From Planctomycetaceae bacterium (lineage in GTDB: Bacteria > Planctomycetota > Planctomycetia > Planctomycetales > Planctomycetaceae): a stretch of 43,853 bases of DNA. The stretch is taken from assembly GCA_024742875.1 (NCBI GenBank), contig JANSXP010000058.1, forward strand, positions 1-43,853. Direction: 5' to 3'. Below are positions 1 through 43,077 of the stretch, piece by piece (the first letter of the stretch is position 1; each line of letters opens with the position of its first letter). A program made the position numbers and the translations under genes. The notes beneath the pieces are model-generated. The model did not search any database, was not told where the DNA came from, and saw nothing but the letters and a program-made list of their open reading frames with translations.

Positions 1-81
1 AACCTTGTCTGAAAATGCGTCGCAGACTTCAGAAATGGCGACCTGTGTGATGCGTTCAATACTGAGGTCGGCGTCAGTCAT
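1..81 (-). CDS. Cassette gene, 5' end only, unknown product
   Basis: An ATG at 81-79 opens a frame that runs without a stop to the window edge, giving 27 residues beginning MTDADLSIERITQVA. It lies just downstream, in cassette direction, of the attC at 133-221, where the next cassette gene is expected, and has the same orientation as most cassette genes. Too little is visible to name a family. Confidence 0.5.
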   Translation of the reverse strand, partial: MTDADLSIERITQVAISEVCDAFSDKV

Positions 82-132
82 GTTGCTGGAAAATGATGTG
101 TGCCATTGACTAGAGCAGCAGCTGGCTTTGGG

Positions 133-221
133 GCATAACGTTTAGCATCAGCCGGTTGCGACGAGTGATGCTCAATGTGAAAACGCGCCGTTCGCAACTC
201 GGCTGCATGCTGTTGTTATGC
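133..221 (-). repeat. attC site of the DMP19-like cassette
   Basis: An 89-bp imperfect palindrome runs from GCATAACG (133-140) to GTTATGC (215-221). The arms AGCAT-CAGCCG-GTTGCGA and the complement of the right arm match, except that the right arm has an extra G and an extra A at the dashes. Extra bases in the gene-proximal half are the known orientation mark of attC sites (extrahelical bases read by IntI), so this site points left, consistent with the gene at 224-769. Confidence 0.85.
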
Positions 222-223
222 GG

Positions 224-769
224 CTAGTCGTCGCAAAATTCGTGGGGAACAGATCGGATCTTCTGGTGCCGCAACTCAGTCAGCTCATCCTGTAGCTCTT
301 CGAACCGGGTGTCAAACGGGCTGAGTGATGAGTGGGCGTATGAATCGACAAATGATTGCTTTGTGGCGTCCGCCTGCATGGATTTCGGAGTTGCCCCTTC
401 ATTTGCTCGTTTGGCGTTAGCCTGCTGCATCAGGTCAGCATGAGCATTGGCGTTAAAGTATCGAAAAGCCTTGATAGCATCGACCGAAAGTCGGTCTGCG
501 GTGTTGCAGTAGAATTGGTTGAAGCCGCCGTTGTTGACCTCTGCTTGCACAATCCAAGTAACCCAGAACGCTTGGATCCCAAGTGGGATGTCATCAAGAG
601 ACCGGTCCGTTTCAATGGAATGAGTCATGTAGTCAACGATTGCCATGTCGAGTTCCGCGTTCGGTATCTCGGCCAAGATCGAGGGCGTGAATCGAGCGTA
701 CCGCGTGCGTTGGTCATGCTTCGCGAACGCTGCCTCAATCGCTCTCAATTCGTCTTTGCTGATTCCCAT
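224..769 (-). CDS. DMP19/DUF4375-like cassette protein
   Basis: This 181-residue protein carries a segment around residues 77-90 reading VNNGGFNQFYCN, which resembles the conserved core of the DUF4375/DMP19 domain. Proteins with this domain are mostly uncharacterised; a DNA-mimic role has been described for the Neisseria DMP19 protein, but I cannot say it applies here. The gene fills its cassette: its TAG stop (226-224) is 2 bp beyond the end of the attC at 133-221, and its start lies 10 bp from the attC at 780-870. No signal peptide or membrane segment is seen. Expression probably depends on read-through along the array or on an internal promoter. Confidence 0.8.
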   Translation of the reverse strand: MGISKDELRAIEAAFAKHDQRTRYARFTPSILAEIPNAELDMAIVDYMTHSIETDRSLDDIPLGIQAFWVTWIVQAEVNNGGFNQFYCNTADRLSVDAIKAFRYFNANAHADLMQQANAKRANEGATPKSMQADATKQSFVDSYAHSSLSPFDTRFEELQDELTELRHQKIRSVPHEFCDD

Positions 770-779
770 TCAGGTTGCC

Positions 780-870
780 GCATAACGCCTGTGATCAGCG
801 GATTGTGGCCAGTGATTCACAAAAACAGAAAACGCGCGGCCCACAATTCCGCTGCATCACTTTGTTATGC
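780..870 (-). repeat. attC site of the 244-residue-protein cassette
   Basis: A 91-bp imperfect palindrome from GCATAACG (780-787) to GTTATGC (864-870). The left arm TGAT-CAGCGGA-TTGTGG-CC pairs with a right arm carrying extra G, A and G at the dashes. Orientation is the same as in the other sites. The stop codon of the gene at 865-1599 is the TAA read on the minus strand inside the right-hand core. Confidence 0.87.
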
Positions 871-1599
871 ATCATGCATTGCGTCAATTGGAAATTCAAT
901 TGGTGTGTCATAGGGCTTCGCAACCACCTGACCCTCTATGGACTTGTACGGGGTCAGAACTACGCGTCGGTCCTTTACTGTGACGGTGCCGCAAAGCAAG
1001 TAGATATCTGAGTGCCTGAATAGTTTAAACGGCTCGGATCGAACCCGTTCCCCGGTTTTGTTGTTGGTGTGCGTTACAAACGCAACGGAACCACCTCCAT
1101 TTGGGCGAATCTGAAACGTGACATCGACAGTGTAGGACTTTGTGCATTTGGTCTTGTGGGTAATTTCTAATGTGGAACCGTTCTCAGCGAGGGCAGACTC
1201 AACTGAGTCGATAGCATCCTTGAGTTGATCGTTGTCTGTTACGTGGCGGAGCGCTGCGAACGTGGCCGTGGCGAGCATCGCTTCACGGTCGGCATCCGAC
1301 AACGCGTTAAAGACGACACGGTCCAAACCATATCGAACGCGTTTCACGCGGTTGTCAGGCAATGCCTCCACTTCGATCTCGCCAGGTTCCGAATCGGCGT
1401 CAAGATCGATGTATAGATGATCAGCACGACCACCAAGCGTGAATCCGTGCTCGCGAAGCTTTCGGGCAATCCGATTCGATGTGTATGCGGAGGACTTTGG
1501 TTGGTGAAATACGTAGCCGAGATACCCAGACGCCGGTTGGCAATCCTCACGATGCACTTCGTAGATGCGGATATCGAGGATGACTTTCACTGGCGACAT
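865..1599 (-). CDS. Hypothetical cassette protein, 244 aa
   Basis: The start was taken as the ATG at 1599 (MSPVKVILDIRIYEV), which lies just inside the cassette boundary; an upstream extension would run back through the attC at 1613-1703. The product is soluble, with no signal peptide or transmembrane segment and a mixed alpha/beta pattern. It has an acidic patch near residues 68-82 (DLDADSEPGEIEVE) and a strand-rich C-terminal third. I do not recognise a family. The stop codon is embedded in the attC core at 864-870, so the gene occupies the whole cassette. Confidence 0.75.
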   Translation of the reverse strand: MSPVKVILDIRIYEVHREDCQPASGYLGYVFHQPKSSAYTSNRIARKLREHGFTLGGRADHLYIDLDADSEPGEIEVEALPDNRVKRVRYGLDRVVFNALSDADREAMLATATFAALRHVTDNDQLKDAIDSVESALAENGSTLEITHKTKCTKSYTVDVTFQIRPNGGGSVAFVTHTNNKTGERVRSEPFKLFRHSDIYLLCGTVTVKDRRVVLTPYKSIEGQVVAKPYDTPIEFPIDAMHDA

Positions 1600-1612
1600 A
1601 ACTGGGATTGAT

Positions 1613-1703
1613 GCATAACGAACAAAAATCACCGGGCCGTGGCCGGTGACAACCCAAACACGCGCGACGGGGACCACGGCTCCGGTGCATTTAGTTGTTA
1701 GGT
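1613..1703 (-). repeat. attC site following the 141-aa-gene cassette
   Basis: A 91-bp palindrome from GCATAACG (1613-1620) to GTTAGGT (1697-1703). The right core fits the GTTRRRY consensus. The left arm AT-CACCGG-GCCGTGG matches the complement of the right arm, which again has an extra G and an extra A. Polarity is the same as its neighbours, although the gene in this cassette (1715-2140) points the other way. Confidence 0.85.
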
Positions 1704-1714
1704 TGACGAACAGT

Positions 1715-2140
1715 ATGGAAGCTTTGGAGCAGATCGCGATCGAACTCGACAGCAAAGATGCGAGCTGGGATATCTGGCGAACAGAGGATCGTCACTGGTG
1801 TGTAAAGATATCAATGTCCCAGCAGACGCAAACCTTTAAGAACGGGGGGCTGACCAAGGCGATGGAGGCTGCCAACAACTGGAAGCCATTGCCACTGGTG
1901 CCGAGGCAGCCACGCCTGTTGTACGAGTCGTTATTTGAGCCCCGAAAATCCGGGAGCAAGTGGGAGTTGCATTACGACGGCAACTACTTTGGCGGTGGCC
2001 TCAAGACTAAGAGGGAGGCGCTAGAGTGTGCGGAGAGGCTGGCTCGTAAGTCGCAAGCGGCTGTCAACGAATGGGACGTGAATTACGGATGGACCGCCGC
2101 CAAGGTGGAGGGCGTCGATTTCAGGTACTCGTCCGCCTAA
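1715..2140 (+). CDS. Hypothetical cassette protein, 141 aa, reversed in its cassette
   Basis: The ATG at 1715 (MEALEQIAIELDSKD) lies 11 bp inside the cassette boundary; codons upstream in frame run back through attC sequence and are unlikely to be coding. The TAA stop at 2138-2140 is part of the GCCTAAC core of the next attC. The protein is small, soluble and Trp-rich (DASWDIWRTEDRHWC near residues 14-28; WDVNYGW near 118-124). I do not recognise the family. The gene is antisense to the array, so it needs its own promoter. Confidence 0.7.
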   Translation: MEALEQIAIELDSKDASWDIWRTEDRHWCVKISMSQQTQTFKNGGLTKAMEAANNWKPLPLVPRQPRLLYESLFEPRKSGSKWELHYDGNYFGGGLKTKREALECAERLARKSQAAVNEWDVNYGWTAAKVEGVDFRYSSA

Positions 2141-2226
2141 CGCTAGTGATCACCGGGCCGCCCCCCAGTGATCTTGATTTTCAGAAAACGCGCCGTGGGC
2201 GGCTCCGGTGCATCACATTGTTATGT
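2135..2226 (-). repeat. attC site of the methyltransferase cassette
   Basis: A 92-bp palindrome from GCCTAACG (2135-2142), a full match to RYYYAAC, to GTTATGT (2220-2226). The left arm GAT-CACCGG-GCCGCCC matches the complement of the right arm with an extra G and A in the right arm. Its polarity equals that of the other attC sites, which shows that the flanking + strand genes, not the sites, are reversed. Confidence 0.87.
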
Positions 2227-2239
2227 GGCATTTAGTTTG

Positions 2240-2980
2240 ATGGTGGAACCATATTACGACCGGGCTGGAATCACGATTTATCACGGCGACTGCTTTACGA
2301 TACTGCATGAACTGGAGGGCATCGACGCATTTGTGACCGATCCGCCGTACAGCAGCGGCGGTGCGTTTCGCAGTGACCGAACAGTCAGCACGGTGAGCAA
2401 ATACGTGCAAACACAGACGCAAGCGTACCGCCCCGAATTTGGTGGCGACAATCGCGACCAGCGGAGTTTTATGACGTGGTGCGGCATGTGGTTGTCCGCA
2501 GCGTACAACGCCAGCAACGCAAACGCGATCGTGTGCAGTTTCATCGACTGGCGGCAGTTGCCGACGTTGAGCGATGCAATACAGGCGGGAGGATGGACAT
2601 GGCGGGGAGTCGCGGTGTGGTCGAAAAAGTTTGGCCGACCGACCCCGGGTCGATTCTCGAATGCGTGCGAGTATGTGGTTTGGGGCAGCAAGGGGCCGAT
2701 GTTGCAGCGAGAGGTGTACCCGCCGGGTGTGTTTGAGTGCAGCCCGCCGAGCGGCGATGCGAAACAGCACATCGCGCAAAAGCCAGAAGCGGTTATGGAG
2801 TGGGTGTTGTCGGTTGTGCCGGACGGGGCGACGGTGTGCGACCCATTCATGGGCAGCGGGACGACGCTGAGGGCCGCGAAGAACGCCGGGTGCAAGTGCA
2901 TCGGGATCGAAGCTGACGAACAGTATTGTGAAATGGCGGCGAAACGACTGCAGCAGGATGTGCTGCCGTTTGCCACATAA
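2240..2980 (+). CDS. Site-specific DNA methyltransferase (N4-cytosine/N6-adenine), cassette-borne
   Basis: The protein has 246 residues, starting at ATG 2240 (MVEPYYDRAG); upstream in-frame codons lie in attC sequence. The catalytic motif DPPY (TDPPYSSGG) is near residues 33-38 and the AdoMet-binding motif DPFMGSGTT near residues 199-207, an order typical of beta-class amino-methyltransferases (PF01555). A long variable segment between them could hold the target recognition region. It would methylate exocyclic amino groups of A or C in a specific DNA sequence. No restriction enzyme gene is adjacent, so it looks like an orphan methylase. Its TAA stop lies in the core of the attC at 2975-3064. 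The gene runs against the cassette direction. Confidence 0.92.
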   Translation: MVEPYYDRAGITIYHGDCFTILHELEGIDAFVTDPPYSSGGAFRSDRTVSTVSKYVQTQTQAYRPEFGGDNRDQRSFMTWCGMWLSAAYNASNANAIVCSFIDWRQLPTLSDAIQAGGWTWRGVAVWSKKFGRPTPGRFSNACEYVVWGSKGPMLQREVYPPGVFECSPPSGDAKQHIAQKPEAVMEWVLSVVPDGATVCDPFMGSGTTLRAAKNAGCKCIGIEADEQYCEMAAKRLQQDVLPFAT

Positions 2981-3064
2981 CGACCAACATCAGCGGGTTG
3001 TGGCCGTTGACGTGGATTTCAGATTGCGGGCGGACCACAACTCCGCTGCATGTTTTTGTTAGCC
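2975..3064 (-). repeat. attC site of the two-gene small-protein cassette
   Basis: A 90-bp palindrome from ACATAACG (2975-2982) to GTTAGCC (3058-3064). The left arm ACAT-CAGCGG-GTTGTGG-CC matches the complement of the right arm, which has extra G, A and T. The cores provide stop codons for both flanking genes: TAA for the methyltransferase on + and TAA for the coiled-coil gene on -. Confidence 0.87.
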
Positions 3065-3379
3065 AGCCGGGTCTGATGACACGCCATGTTTCTGACAGAA
3101 CTGCTCCCAGCCACCGGCAGCTTTGACGTGCTTGATTGCAACGGGAATCAGAAGATCTTCCAGTTCAGCGTCAGACATGTTCTCGGTCTTCGCCCGGTCC
3201 TCAAGTTCCCCCGCTAACGCCTTGATTCGAGAATCAGCACTGACATTGGCAGCCTCGAGCTTGGCGATTTGTTTCTGCAGACGAAGGATCTCCTTGTCGA
3301 GCGCATCGATGTGACGTTGCAAATGCGGGTCTGCGGTAGCGATGGCATCATTGAGGTCGGGTGATCGTGCGTCTGACAT
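3059..3379 (-). CDS. Small coiled-coil cassette protein, 106 aa
   Basis: A central heptad-rich stretch (about residues 20-70: LDKEILRLQKQIAKLEAAN and onward) predicts a coiled coil. It is followed by a short C-terminal region with WEQFCQKHGVSSDP. There is no signal peptide or membrane segment, and no family is recognised. It is the second gene of its cassette, 36 bp downstream of the membrane-protein gene at 3416-3598, and its TAA stop comes from the attC core at 3058-3061. Confidence 0.7.
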   Translation of the reverse strand: MSDARSPDLNDAIATADPHLQRHIDALDKEILRLQKQIAKLEAANVSADSRIKALAGELEDRAKTENMSDAELEDLLIPVAIKHVKAAGGWEQFCQKHGVSSDPAG

Positions 3380-3415
3380 TGTTGGGCTCGATAAAGAAGC
3401 GGCGTGAGTTCACGG

Positions 3416-3598
3416 CTATGGTAAATATGGGTCGTCGTCGTAGAGGTCAGGATCAGCAAGTGGGTCGTATTTGTATGGGTCGGCGTTTGGATCGTAAGGA
3501 GCGATCAGATTGATAACGAAAAAGAATGCGGCAATTGCAAGGACGGCGATGATGATGCATCCCCACGGATTGTCGTCTGGCTTCTTCGATTCTGTCAT
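3416..3598 (-). CDS. Small single-pass membrane protein in cassette, 60 aa
   Basis: Residues about 12-32 (WGCIIIAVLAIAAFFFVINLI) form one strong transmembrane helix. This is followed by an acidic, proline/tyrosine-rich tail (DPNADPYKYDPLADPDLY) with a repeated D-P-x-x-Y flavour. It lies just inside the cassette boundary defined by the attC at 3611-3700 and upstream of the coiled-coil gene. Function is unknown; the pair may act together, but that is only an inference from co-location. Confidence 0.6.
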   Translation of the reverse strand: MTESKKPDDNPWGCIIIAVLAIAAFFFVINLIAPYDPNADPYKYDPLADPDLYDDDPYLP

Positions 3599-3610
3599 GT
3601 GGTCTTTGCT

Positions 3611-3700
3611 GGCTAACGCCTGCCGTAACCGGGCACGAACGGAAGGCTTTGATTTCAGTTGCCGCGTGAATGAGTGCTCCGGTTCACGGCTTTGTTATGT
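3611..3700 (-). repeat. attC site of the first (attI-proximal) cassette
   Basis: A 90-bp palindrome from GGCTAACG (3611-3618), a good RYYYAAC match, to GTTATGT (3694-3700). The left arm GCCGT-AACCGG-GCAC matches the complement of the right arm with one extra G and one extra A. It is the most sequence-divergent stem of the six, yet keeps the two unpaired bases 6 bp apart like the others. Confidence 0.85.
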
Positions 3701-4024
3701 TGCTCGTTGCGGTGCGAACTCACCATCAGCGTGCGTGATTACAAATGGTTGACCTGCAGCCGTGGGAATCCAACCAGAGGTAAGAGCGTATTGGATCGCC
3801 GACCGAACAAAAGCCGGCGTGACGACGTGCGGATCAAACGGTGGTGTATTTTGGTATTCGGGTTCGCACCAGTCTACCCAGCCCCAGTCTACGATGAGCT
3901 TTTGCCCGCGACGGCTGGTGTTTGAGTCAGCGTAGACAGTCAACACGCCATCGAAGCGCCACTGAAACGCTGAATCATCAACGATGATTTTACGAAAGTC
4001 GCGTTTCTTGGTTGGGCGTGCCAT
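3695..4024 (-). CDS. Conserved-looking hypothetical protein, 109 aa, cassette 1
   Basis: The start is the ATG at 4024-4022 (MARPTKKRDFRKIIVDD), which overlaps the TAA stop of the VOC gene as TAATG and indicates translational coupling. Upstream in-frame codons lie in the VOC reading region and are rejected. The protein has a basic N-terminus and a Trp-rich motif (VDWGWVDWCEPE near residues 45-56), and ends in the attC core (TAA at 3697-3695). Similar short proteins occur as uncharacterised genes in environmental bacteria as far as I recall, but I cannot name a domain. Confidence 0.75.
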   Translation of the reverse strand: MARPTKKRDFRKIIVDDSAFQWRFDGVLTVYADSNTSRRGQKLIVDWGWVDWCEPEYQNTPPFDPHVVTPAFVRSAIQYALTSGWIPTAAGQPFVITHADGEFAPQRAT

Positions 4025-4392
4025 TAGACGCTGTGCTGTTGCTTTTGAATGAGTTCGACACGGTGACCATCCGGATCGGCAACGACAGCGCGTAGACCCC
4101 ATTGTGTCTGTTTTGGTTCGGTGAGAACTTCTCCACTCATTTTACGTAGCGAGGCGAGAACGGTGTCGATGGACGCGACAGCGAATCCGATGCGGGATGT
4201 TGAGACCGGAAACCGTTCCGACGCTGGATACAACTCGAATACGGCATCGCCGAGGGCCGTGCTGAAATGCTCCGGTCCTGTACCGTGTTTTTCACGTTCA
4301 AACGCGAGTCCGATTGCGGAGTAGAACTCGACCGCAGATTCGATGTCCGCTACACGCAAGACGATGAGAGAAAGCGACGGGTCGCTGGGCAT
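4024..4392 (-). CDS. VOC (glyoxalase/bleomycin-resistance fold) protein, first cassette
   Basis: The protein has 122 residues, starting at ATG 4392 (MPSDPSLSLIVLRVADIESA); the longer frame upstream runs through the attI-cassette junction. The pattern LRVADIESAVEFYSAIGL is the classical start of a betaalphabetabetabeta VOC module, and GLRAVVADPDGHRVELIQ the typical C-terminal module, with Glu as a probable metal ligand. Family members include glyoxalase I and antibiotic-binding or -modifying proteins; the substrate cannot be told here. It is the cassette gene closest to attI, the position normally best expressed from an integron promoter, and is coupled to the next gene by a TAATG overlap. Confidence 0.88.
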   Translation of the reverse strand: MPSDPSLSLIVLRVADIESAVEFYSAIGLAFEREKHGTGPEHFSTALGDAVFELYPASERFPVSTSRIGFAVASIDTVLASLRKMSGEVLTEPKQTQWGLRAVVADPDGHRVELIQKQQHSV

Positions 4393-4416
4393 ATGTGGGT
4401 GACCCTCGCTGTTGCA

Positions 4417-4621
4417 ACATAACTTTGTATTAGATGGACGTCCGGATAAGCAGTCTCGAATATACCGTCTGCTATCTACGATTCGTGGCCATGCCTCCGG
4501 ATTCCCCGAGTCTACGAGGGGAAATGCCAAGGGGCAATCGCGGCTTATGTGGAATTGGCTGGCTTATGCGGAATCCGTGTAAGCCGCCAAAAGGCTACAA
4601 GTCTGGATTTGGAGCCTATCG
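4417..4621 (-). other. attI-like region between intI and the first cassette
   Basis: The junction with cassette 1 is ACATAAC at 4417-4423, read on the minus strand as GTTATGT, a fit to the GTTRRRY recombination core. Between it and the intI start are no convincing genes. Near intI there is a 14-bp direct repeat GGCTTATGYGGAAT at 4542-4555 and 4561-4574, and an inverted pair GCGGCTTA (4540-4547) / TAAGCCGC (4580-4587). Direct repeats next to the core are a known attI feature (integrase-binding DR sites) but could also be an operator of intI. attI sites are not conserved between integrons, so the assignment rests on position and core. Confidence 0.6.
4459..4464 (-). promoter_or_regulatory. Possible -10 element of a cassette promoter
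   Basis: On the minus strand TATATT lies about 40 bp upstream of the cassette junction and about 70 bp upstream of the first cassette start, a plausible place for a cassette promoter. No clear TTGACA-like -35 element sits at 16-18 bp upstream, so this is weak. Confidence 0.2.
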
Positions 4622-5721
4622 ATGAGCCTGCTCGACGACGTTCGCAATCACATGAGAACCCGCCACATGGCGATCCGTACAGAAAAATGCTACCTGCGAT
4701 GGATTGAAAAGTTTCTGCGGTTCCATCGTTCCCGTGCCGGACAGTGGCTTCACCCCACAAACATGGGGTCAGAGCAGGTGAACCAATTTTTGACATATCT
4801 CGCCGTCACGCGGAAAGCCTCCGCCAGCACTCAACAGCAGGCCCTTGCCGCACTGCTGATGCTGTATCAGGACTTTCTGAAACAAAGGCTCAACCTCGAC
4901 ATCATACGAGCCAAACATCCTGACCATATGCCCGTGGTACTTAGCGTGTCTGAAGTCCGTCAGGTGTTCAGGGCTATCCCGTTTGGAGTCCATCGCCTCA
5001 TCGCGGGTCTGCAATACGGAGCGGGGCTGAGACTTATGGAGTCGATTCGGCTGAGGATCAAAGACATCGACTTTCAAAGAAAGCAGGTGCTTGTCCGAGA
5101 TGGCAAAGGAGAAAAAGACCGCTACGTCCCCTTGCCGCAGCGATTGACCGCCGCGCTGCACCGCCAGATCAGCGGCACACTCGTACAGCATCGAGAAGAC
5201 ATGCAGTTAGGCGCTGGATGGGTCTGGATGCCGTACGCGCTCGCCAACAAGTACCCCACTGCTGGTCGTGATCCGATCTGGCAATATGTCTTTCCCGGGC
5301 GTCGGCTTACGCGAGATCCCCGCAGCGATGACAGGGAACTGGGACTGATGAAGGGACGCGGACGCCATCACATTCATGAGTCGTCTGTGCAGAAAGCTGT
5401 CCGCCGCGCCGTTCAGAAGTCAGGTCTCAACAAAAGAATCTGGTCAAAGGGCGGCTTAACCTGCCCCGGAACGAAGCGTTCCGGAATGCGCTTCGGCTGC
5501 CCCTGCAGCATCAGCCCAATCCGCCTGAATGCTGTCACACCTTTCGACATTCGTTTGCGACTCACCTGCTGGAAAGAGGGGTCGACATCCGCACCATACA
5601 GGAACTGCTCGGCCACAAGGACATTTCCACGACCATGATCTACACACACGTGTCGACACTCGGTGCCACAGCAGTCCGCAGTCCACTCGACTGCCTCAAC
5701 GAGCAGGTCGACCGCGAATAA
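4622..5721 (+). pseudogene. intI: Integron integrase intI, reading frame disrupted near the 3' end
   Basis: The tyrosine recombinase starts at ATG 4622 (MSLLDDVRNHMRTRHM) with GGAG at a suitable distance. Residues 1-90 form the SAM-like core-binding domain. Box I is seen as YGAGLRLMESIRLRIKDIDF, followed by VRDGKGEKDR. An IntI-specific patch (WVWMPYALANKYP, WQYVFPGRR, RHHIHES) separates it from XerC/D. After [11 protein letters not shown] (to 5440) the frame changes: box II and the nucleophile ([33 protein letters not shown], then RSPLD) lie 2 nt out of frame at 5530-5721. Between them is about 89 nt of extra sequence containing a hairpin. The unbroken upstream frame gives a 338-aa product lacking H-x-x-R and Tyr, so it should be inactive unless a frameshift occurs. 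Most integron integrases are 320-340 aa. Confidence 0.9.
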
Positions 5722-42475: not shown

Positions 42476-43002
42476 TCATGGCAACCATTTTTGCCACCAG
42501 GAACGGTCCACAATCCCCCAGGCTCGCTTGTGAATTCTCACAAAGAACTCGCACAGTTCACCAATCGGCGTGTCGCTGGGACACCAGCGATCAACGACAT
42601 GGTAGCGACCGCCGACAGACGCTTCTACGACGTGGTGTCTGCCGCCGAGCGCATCGACCGGCGTGACTGTGTCCAACGCCCAGAAATCTCCGCCAAAGTA
42701 AGCTTCACCTCAGATGACTCAAATGTGAAATTGCGGCCGACACCGGTGTAGTCAGCAATTCGTTTGCAGACCGCGTGTGAGTGATTCAGGTCTAAGCGAA
42801 CGACTCCAGCGTATTGCCCCTCAATCGTGAAATACCGGTAACCATCAGCGACGCTATCCAACCGCATCGACGACTCACGCATGTTGGTGAGGAACTCTGC
42901 GTATACGCCGTCATGCAATCTGTAACGTGGTTCCACAGAACCGGGTGGGAAGAATTGTGGGTGGAATTCAATTAGGAGGTCCTTGCCACATCGCACCTGC
43001 AA
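42476..43002 (-). pseudogene. Broken gene of unknown function, single frameshift
   Basis: Two minus-strand frames join into one coherent protein. The first, from about 43002 (start uncertain, partly inside the attC-like site), reads to FTFESSEV at about 42708. A second, 1-nt-shifted frame continues as EAYFGGDFWALDTVTPVDALGG and on to a stop at 42476. One missing base near the GAGGTGAAGC segment would explain it. The joined protein would be about 175 aa. No family is recognised. It sits directly downstream of the decayed attC, where a next cassette would begin. Confidence 0.55.
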
Positions 43003-43077
43003 TCACCGGGTTGCCGCCAGCGACATGGACTTCCAATTCAGCCCGGCCGGCAACTCCGGTGCATTGTATTGCTATCC
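42988..43077 (-). repeat. Decayed, isolated attC-like site
   Basis: The 90-bp site has the same stem as the array sites: CAAT-CACCGG-GTTGCCG on the left and its complement with an extra G and A on the right. The cores are mutated: ACATCGCA replaces ACATAACG at the left end, and GCTATCC replaces GTTAGCC at the right end. Loss of AAC and GTT should prevent recombination. The TAG stop of the gene at 43072-43632 comes from the mutated core, as in real cassettes. It points the same way as the array 38 kb to the left. Confidence 0.8.

Follow-up and report, generated by a model that had tools for sequence, protein, structure and literature searches.

The stretch of DNA analysed here (43,853 nt, hereafter the window) is the entire contig JANSXP010000058.1, our C127, of the draft genome of a Planctomycetaceae bacterium (GCA_024742875.1; 8.18 Mb in 168 contigs, 98.1% complete). 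Its left part probably represents the side nearest intI of a chromosomal (sedentary) planctomycete integron, in which the integrase gene intI has since been interrupted by an 89-nt repeat. Unless some other integrase can act on the cassette array, it is most likely frozen. Evidence on the identity of intI, its insert and frame shift, the structure and polarity of the attC sites, the organisation of the cassettes and the spread of attC through the genome was obtained directly by sequence comparison. An original prediction, made from the letters of the window, had announced a chromosomal integron with an IntI-type integrase, an attI-like junction and six attC sites; it had overlooked the frame break in intI, a seventh attC site and the antisense orientation of two cassettes.

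The integrase gene is made of two parts in different frames, separated by the insert:

4622-5440, plus strand: intI, N-terminal part, 273 codons in the first frame, with the R and K of the active site (TIGR02249 291.6 bits, profile positions 1-259)
~5441-5529, plus strand: insert in intI, 89 nt, with a hairpin, shifting the frame (missing from 34 of 34 relatives' frames)
5530-5721, plus strand: intI, C-terminal part, in another frame (TIGR02249 101.9 bits, profile positions 260-315)

The first frame alone exceeds the TIGR02249 cut-off of 265 bits, a score reached in none of 14 control genomes, and the window intI is 60% identical to an intI of the same genus (L093). The predicted integrase is thus of the IntI type, but its gene is not intact: no single frame carries the complete R-K-H-R-H-Y set. 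Where the open frames of relatives have 3 nt (34/34, including two or three partial genes and a few alignment ends extrapolated without gaps), the window has 92, hence an insert of 89 nt. The frame shift falls before the catalytic H-R-H-Y, and as sequenced the product would lack that part. For the intact same-genus IntI, the best solved relative is IntI4 of Vibrio cholerae (PDB 2a3v), with 260.2 bits over residues 4-326 of 328; the window copy differs by being interrupted before the last active-site part. A second intI was searched for in the genome: all 23 candidates were scored, and apart from the window intI none passed the TIGR02249 cut-off.

The hairpin of the insert folds modestly (z of -2.09 for a 111-nt stretch, 8 of 200 shuffles folding at least as well). 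A DNA search of the genome found pieces of the insert, 29-37 nt long and 89-93% identical, once on contig C19 (position 90596, L010) and twice on C149 (12304 and 12395, L011). These last two copies are 91 nt apart, and by eye their flanks seem mutually complementary. A 27-base pattern with three free positions was drawn up after viewing the copies, so that it matches four places perfectly by construction; the DNA search is free of this bias. No copy of a 23-nt core was found in the 149 other genomes of the family, with one position left free and one mismatch allowed. The repeat inside intI may belong to a small structured family particular to this strain.

The attC sites were examined with R1, a covariance model built from the six sites of positions 1-5721 and run on the window with filters off. 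The following places were found, the strand given being the bottom strand, which is the one expected to recombine:

133-221, plus strand: attC 1 (R1 91.7 bits)
780-870, plus strand: attC 2 (R1 99.3 bits)
1613-1703, plus strand: attC 3 (R1 82.2 bits)
2135-2226, plus strand: attC 4 (R1 93.6 bits)
2975-3064, plus strand: attC 5 (R1 91.2 bits)
3611-3700, plus strand: attC 6 (R1 83.5 bits)
42988-43077, plus strand: seventh attC, alone and decayed, its R boxes altered, close to the right end of the contig (R1 64.5 bits)

The first six, each an imperfect palindrome 89-92 nt long, end in AAC and GTT boxes and have an inner stem that we named over 18 pairs. On the named structure, 93.3% of the cells are paired, the inner stem reaching 97.2% and the R stem 83.3%; a two-sided change is seen at 14 of the 25 pairs. 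Among 500 shuffles, none reached the values of the attC sites for paired percentage, covariation score or cells with a two-sided change; one reached the number of pairs with such a change, and 41 the number of further pair types. Sliding the structure along left only 31-43% paired. In the window, R1 gives the six sites 82.2-99.3 bits by construction, at most 27.8 bits to their reverse strand, and 12.5 bits to the next-best place outside the attC sites. The six sites of nearly constant length are confirmed as such.

Independent tests of R1 come from other sequence. Outside this genome, 82 matches (E ≤0.01) were found in 29 of 78 intI loci of other genomes, mostly from other phyla; the 49 loci without a match include many with short flanks, and two of the 80 loci fetched (L191 and L195) were left out. 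Matches lie beside intI in Pseudomonas, Marinobacter, Luteimonas, one cyanobacterium and one acidobacterium, and in 19 of 30 intI loci of the family, where flanks of about 1.5 kb were available. In row sets A2 and A6, 49 of 50 and 81 of 82 rows were used, one reverse-strand duplicate being left out of each, and in row set A7 102 of 104, leaving out one duplicate and one cut-off match.

Over the whole genome, R1 detected at least 49 attC sites (E ≤0.01) on 15 contigs, a lower bound obtained by scoring 150 of 2237 first-look candidates. Contig C144 holds 12 of them, C127 7, C20 and C81 5 each, C88 and C139 3 each, and nine more contigs 1 or 2. By eye, these R1-found sites look alike. On 13 of the 15 contigs (the exceptions are C20 and C149) a site lies at most 2 kb from a contig end, as expected when similar sites break the assembly. 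Joining by end overlap was tried for 15 stretches: a single overlap, of 32 nt, was seen between C71 and C88, and no join of C127 to another array contig was found. Of 33 inter-site intervals, attI-attC included, 29 have their longest open reading frame (ORF) in the cassette sense and 4 have it antisense, two of them in the window; this count used 42 of the 49 sites, the other seven being alone or more than 3 kb from the next. In stretches picked for their arrays in nine genomes, 104 intervals were sense, 12 antisense and 4 without ORF.

We asked on this basis whether the six palindromes could be an ordinary dispersed repeat, REP- or MITE-like, rather than attC. Copies do occur on 15 contigs, some as decayed singles, and similar sites are present in 118 of 150 genomes of the family, 82 of them without intI over cut-off. 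However, the copies do not form a scatter without cassette organisation: most of them line up on one strand, spaced as cassettes are, and the ORFs that separate neighbouring sites mostly share one sense. The matches beside intI in other phyla and the polarity marks described below speak in the same direction. We conclude that a dispersed repeat is extremely improbable. The original prediction had set palindromes spread through the genome without cassette genes as its own refutation, and it stands this check, since the copies elsewhere mostly come with cassette genes.

Polarity could be read from the sites themselves. Each of the six sites carries two bulges on a single arm, a C and then a T six bases further in, and these extrahelical bases are confined to the R''-L'' arm; on the opposite arm, a G follows the AAC of R' in 6 of 6 sites. 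By the marks published in PMC2727003 and PMC3053210, the plus strand of the window is the attC bottom strand, and the cassettes are predicted to read on the minus strand, away from intI. As intI itself is on the plus strand, it is directed away from the array, whose polarity and most ORFs are on the minus strand (longest ORF in the cassette sense in 4 of the 6 window intervals). Other loci have a reversed layout, with attC beyond the 3' end of intI and cassettes co-directional with it: L017/L101 (G064), L025/L108 (G087) and L181, from an Acidobacteria metagenome-assembled genome.

The C bulge is present in 42 and the T bulge in 41 of the 49 attC sites of this genome. Among 48 sites of relatives, 42 have the T bulge, the other bulge being G in 25 and C in 19. 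Outside Planctomycetota, in 73 sites collected with R1 and hence leaning to sites like those of the window, the T bulge is found at equal spacing in 48 and one base off in 15 more, and the other bulge is G in 30 and C in 28. We had considered this bulge pair as a lineage-specific oddity, and rejected the idea, the same arrangement being common in sites of other phyla. According to PMC2727003, the base that is C in the window sites was, as of 2009, almost always G wherever attC had been described; the C bulge departs from that description, though not from our own sample. Sites with T-N6-G and T-N6-C are both reported as efficiently excised in PMC3053210.

The history that we propose is the following. 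The bottom strand of attC would fold into a hairpin, the extrahelical bases (T-N6-C) marking that strand; IntI would have joined cassettes at attI, giving an array that reads away from intI; later, the hairpin-bearing repeat of 89 nt would have interrupted intI, shifting its frame before H-R-H-Y. The array would be frozen thereafter, as the frame shift predicts, unless another integrase acts on it. Past activity, present inactivity and the place of attI are what we infer from the sequence here. The lesion looks single and recent.

Several points weigh against this history. The genome is a draft, and a second, intact intI could be missing from it; the insert could be an assembly fault; and both R boxes (AAC and GTT) are intact in 36 of the 49 sites, 6 of 7 in the window and 30 of 42 on the other contigs, which would also fit a system that is still active. 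In addition, the longest ORF is antisense in 2 of the 6 window cassettes, and a simple pattern search ahead of intI in 13 relatives did not find the core of the candidate attI. The integron would indeed still be active if the frame break were an assembly error, if ribosomal frameshifting bypassed it, or if the part of the genome that is missing held an intact intI acting in trans. That the lesion is single, and that the two parts of intI match consecutive stretches of the profile, suits this possibility as well. We nevertheless consider it unlikely, though the most serious of the alternatives: partial matches of the insert at three other places of the genome and its absence from all 34 frames of relatives compared fit a real insertion, and the genome has no other TIGR02249 match over cut-off. 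An interrupted intI beside an array that is probably frozen thus remains our preferred reading.

A phylogenetic tree of 100 IntI rows placed the window intI as sister to the same-genus G077 copy (99/95), bootstrap being not fully settled, within a clade of 14 rows (99/97) composed of the window, nine family rows and four named rows, all Planctomycetota. This agrees with the planctomycete origin announced for the array. The 22 intI rows of the family do not form one clade, and the copies of G042 and G098, of the same genus, are in a distant group. Because of this scatter, intI has, judging from the tree, moved or multiplied within the group. A recent lateral acquisition of the platform, instead of long-standing residence in the lineage, would account for such scatter; it could also be read from the neighbourhood, since a search of 30 other intI loci (without positive control, on many short flanks) found neither murE nor murF there and gave no sign of a conserved insertion place. 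The sister position of the window intI, the Planctomycetota clade around it and the likeness of the attC sites throughout the genome argue the other way, and we regard recent lateral acquisition as very unlikely.

To place the window in its family, intI and attC were counted in 150 genomes. With up to 13 candidates scored per genome, TIGR02249 passed its cut-off in 38; with R1 under stricter filters (E ≤1e-5, up to 29 candidates scored per genome), attC-like sites were found in 118. Crossing the two counts, attC-like sites are present in 36 of the 38 genomes with intI, and in 82 of the 112 without intI over cut-off; many of these genomes are drafts, in which a gap in the assembly can account for an absent intI. 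In genus g34, two genomes (G033 and G074; L219-L222), of one and two contigs and an estimated completeness of 100%, have 24 and 25 attC-like sites, with series of 10 and 12. No IntI over cut-off was found in either, the best matches to an intact IntI covering the C-terminus only, at 57 bits; these are probably Xer-type. Both R boxes are intact in 28 of the 36 sites from the array stretches fetched for these two genomes, compared to 16 of 18 in G042 and G077, which have intI. The same holds for all 37 sites of three drafts in which no intI passes the cut-off, and for all 11 of G050, where remnants of intI are present. Integrase loss with survival of the array looks common in the family, and the window fits this pattern. 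As a separate observation, G080, without IntI over cut-off, has a long attC array and, close to one of its ends, a divergent fragment of a tyrosine recombinase (L227, C337:27010-27573; 40.8 bits, 27% identical to IntI).

These counts allow a broader proposal, in which arrays of the family would outlast their integrase as a rule and be kept recombination-competent by IntI supplied in trans, from other strains or mobile elements, or by another recombinase, the window being a platform caught just after the loss. It draws on the 82 of 112 genomes that keep attC-like sites without intI over cut-off, and on the R boxes, both intact in most sites, of the two genomes of 100% estimated completeness without recognisable intI. 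We put it forward as a doubtful conjecture. What can be said is that the window cleanly illustrates a platform whose one lesion seems recent. The two closed or nearly closed genomes, with arrays and without recognisable intI, make the survival and exchange of arrays after integrase loss directly askable.

The attI candidate and the cassettes of the window, numbered from the intI side, are as follows:

~4410-4440, minus strand: candidate attI crossover, G^TTATGT (by position and look)
4024-4392, minus strand: cassette 1, gene a, VOC/glyoxalase-type (PF00903 47.7 bits, cut-off 20.6)
3695-4024, minus strand: cassette 1, gene b, without a family, 109 aa (63% identical homologues in genus g24)
3059-3598, minus strand: cassette 2, two ORFs of 60 aa (3416-3598) and 106 aa (3059-3379), neither with a family over cut-off
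2240-2980, plus strand: cassette 3, N6/N4 DNA methyltransferase, against the cassette direction (PF01555 98.5 bits; PADLOC MTase_II 199.9 bits)
1703-2140, plus strand: cassette 4, 145 aa, no family, against the cassette direction (ORF and Pfam scan)
865-1599, minus strand: cassette 5, 244 aa, no family (ORF and Pfam scan)
224-769, minus strand: cassette 6, DMP19-like (PF14300 71.9 bits, cut-off 25)
1-132, minus strand: seventh cassette, start only, truncated where the contig ends (by eye, minus-strand ATG at 81)

A candidate for the attI-like junction of the original prediction is the G^TTATGT motif between intI and the first cassette; its designation as attI comes from position and look, and the simple pattern did not detect its core in the 13 relatives. 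Cargo had been described as mostly unrecognised, and so it is: Pfam families over cut-off were found for 3 of the 8 window ORFs and none for the other 5. No restriction gene was recognised among the window ORFs scanned. Outside the window, 20 of the 27 longest cassette ORFs were scanned, and five had a family over cut-off (DUF6368, NADAR, SUKH-1, HEAT_2 and DUF1559); the NADAR-domain gene (L077:3794-4249, on C144) also matches the PADLOC candidate PDC-M42C, with 61.5 bits.

Two observations bear on cassette exchange. A near-identical variant of attC 6 (GCACGAACGGAAG or close to it) recurs, by eye, in L106, L110 and L118; as these come from three further genera within the family, cassettes may have been exchanged between genera. 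Of the 14 loci with homologues of the gene at 3695-4024, eight were searched, each with flanks of about 1.5 kb, and no attC was found in any of them; exchange is neither shown nor excluded by this result.

As for the flanks, murE and murF follow intI in the window, and the integron therefore has a chromosomal location, as had been proposed. On the left, the array runs to base 1 of the window and stops there because the contig ends. At the right contig end (43631-43853) an insertion sequence-like repeat begins, with an ORF whose start is MKILALDLGKFKTVACLYEQ and which resembles a transposase of the DEDD/IS110 type. Copies of about 170 nt, 98% identical, lie on C71 and C106, and one of about 215 nt, 91% identical, on C159; these three contigs also hold attC sites. 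An Rfam scan of the window returned a single tRNA and no other family.

Integrons in Planctomycetes were already listed in 2008 (PMC2426708) and in PMC8618304. A literature search on Pirellula integrons and attC found no paper, and we claim no absence from print beyond the searches made. Planctomycetes hold many attC-flanked genes of unknown function, to which this genome adds at least 49 sites.

Finally, the window can be compared with known systems. A covariance model of Planctomycetes attC was published in 2021 by Ghaly et al. (PMC8352920), and the window resembles their set, by description only, in that planctomycete chromosomal attC sites are homogeneous enough for a taxon-specific model. 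Clusters of two or more attC without integrase are called CALIN, and are overcounted in drafts according to the IntegronFinder 2.0 paper (PMC9024848). This genome is like them, as 14 of its 15 attC-bearing contigs lack intI on the same contig; the window is unlike them, since its intI, despite the interruption, can still be recognised. An array split by a contig break can also look like a CALIN. In function, the window may now be a CALIN. A close parallel is that of the sedentary integrons of Xanthomonas, in which inactivated intI genes with persisting arrays are described (PMC12444791): both have a chromosomal platform, many poorly known cassettes, and an intI lost while the array persists. 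They differ in the lesion, which in Xanthomonas is a frameshift, stop, truncation or deletion, whereas a small hairpin-bearing repeat was inserted in the window, and also in place, intI being usually by ilvD in Xanthomonas and next to murE here, in a different phylum. Since integrase-less clusters and inactivated intI have been published before, as have planctomycete integrons, what the window contributes is one more planctomycete integron with a clear lesion, not a new kind of integron.

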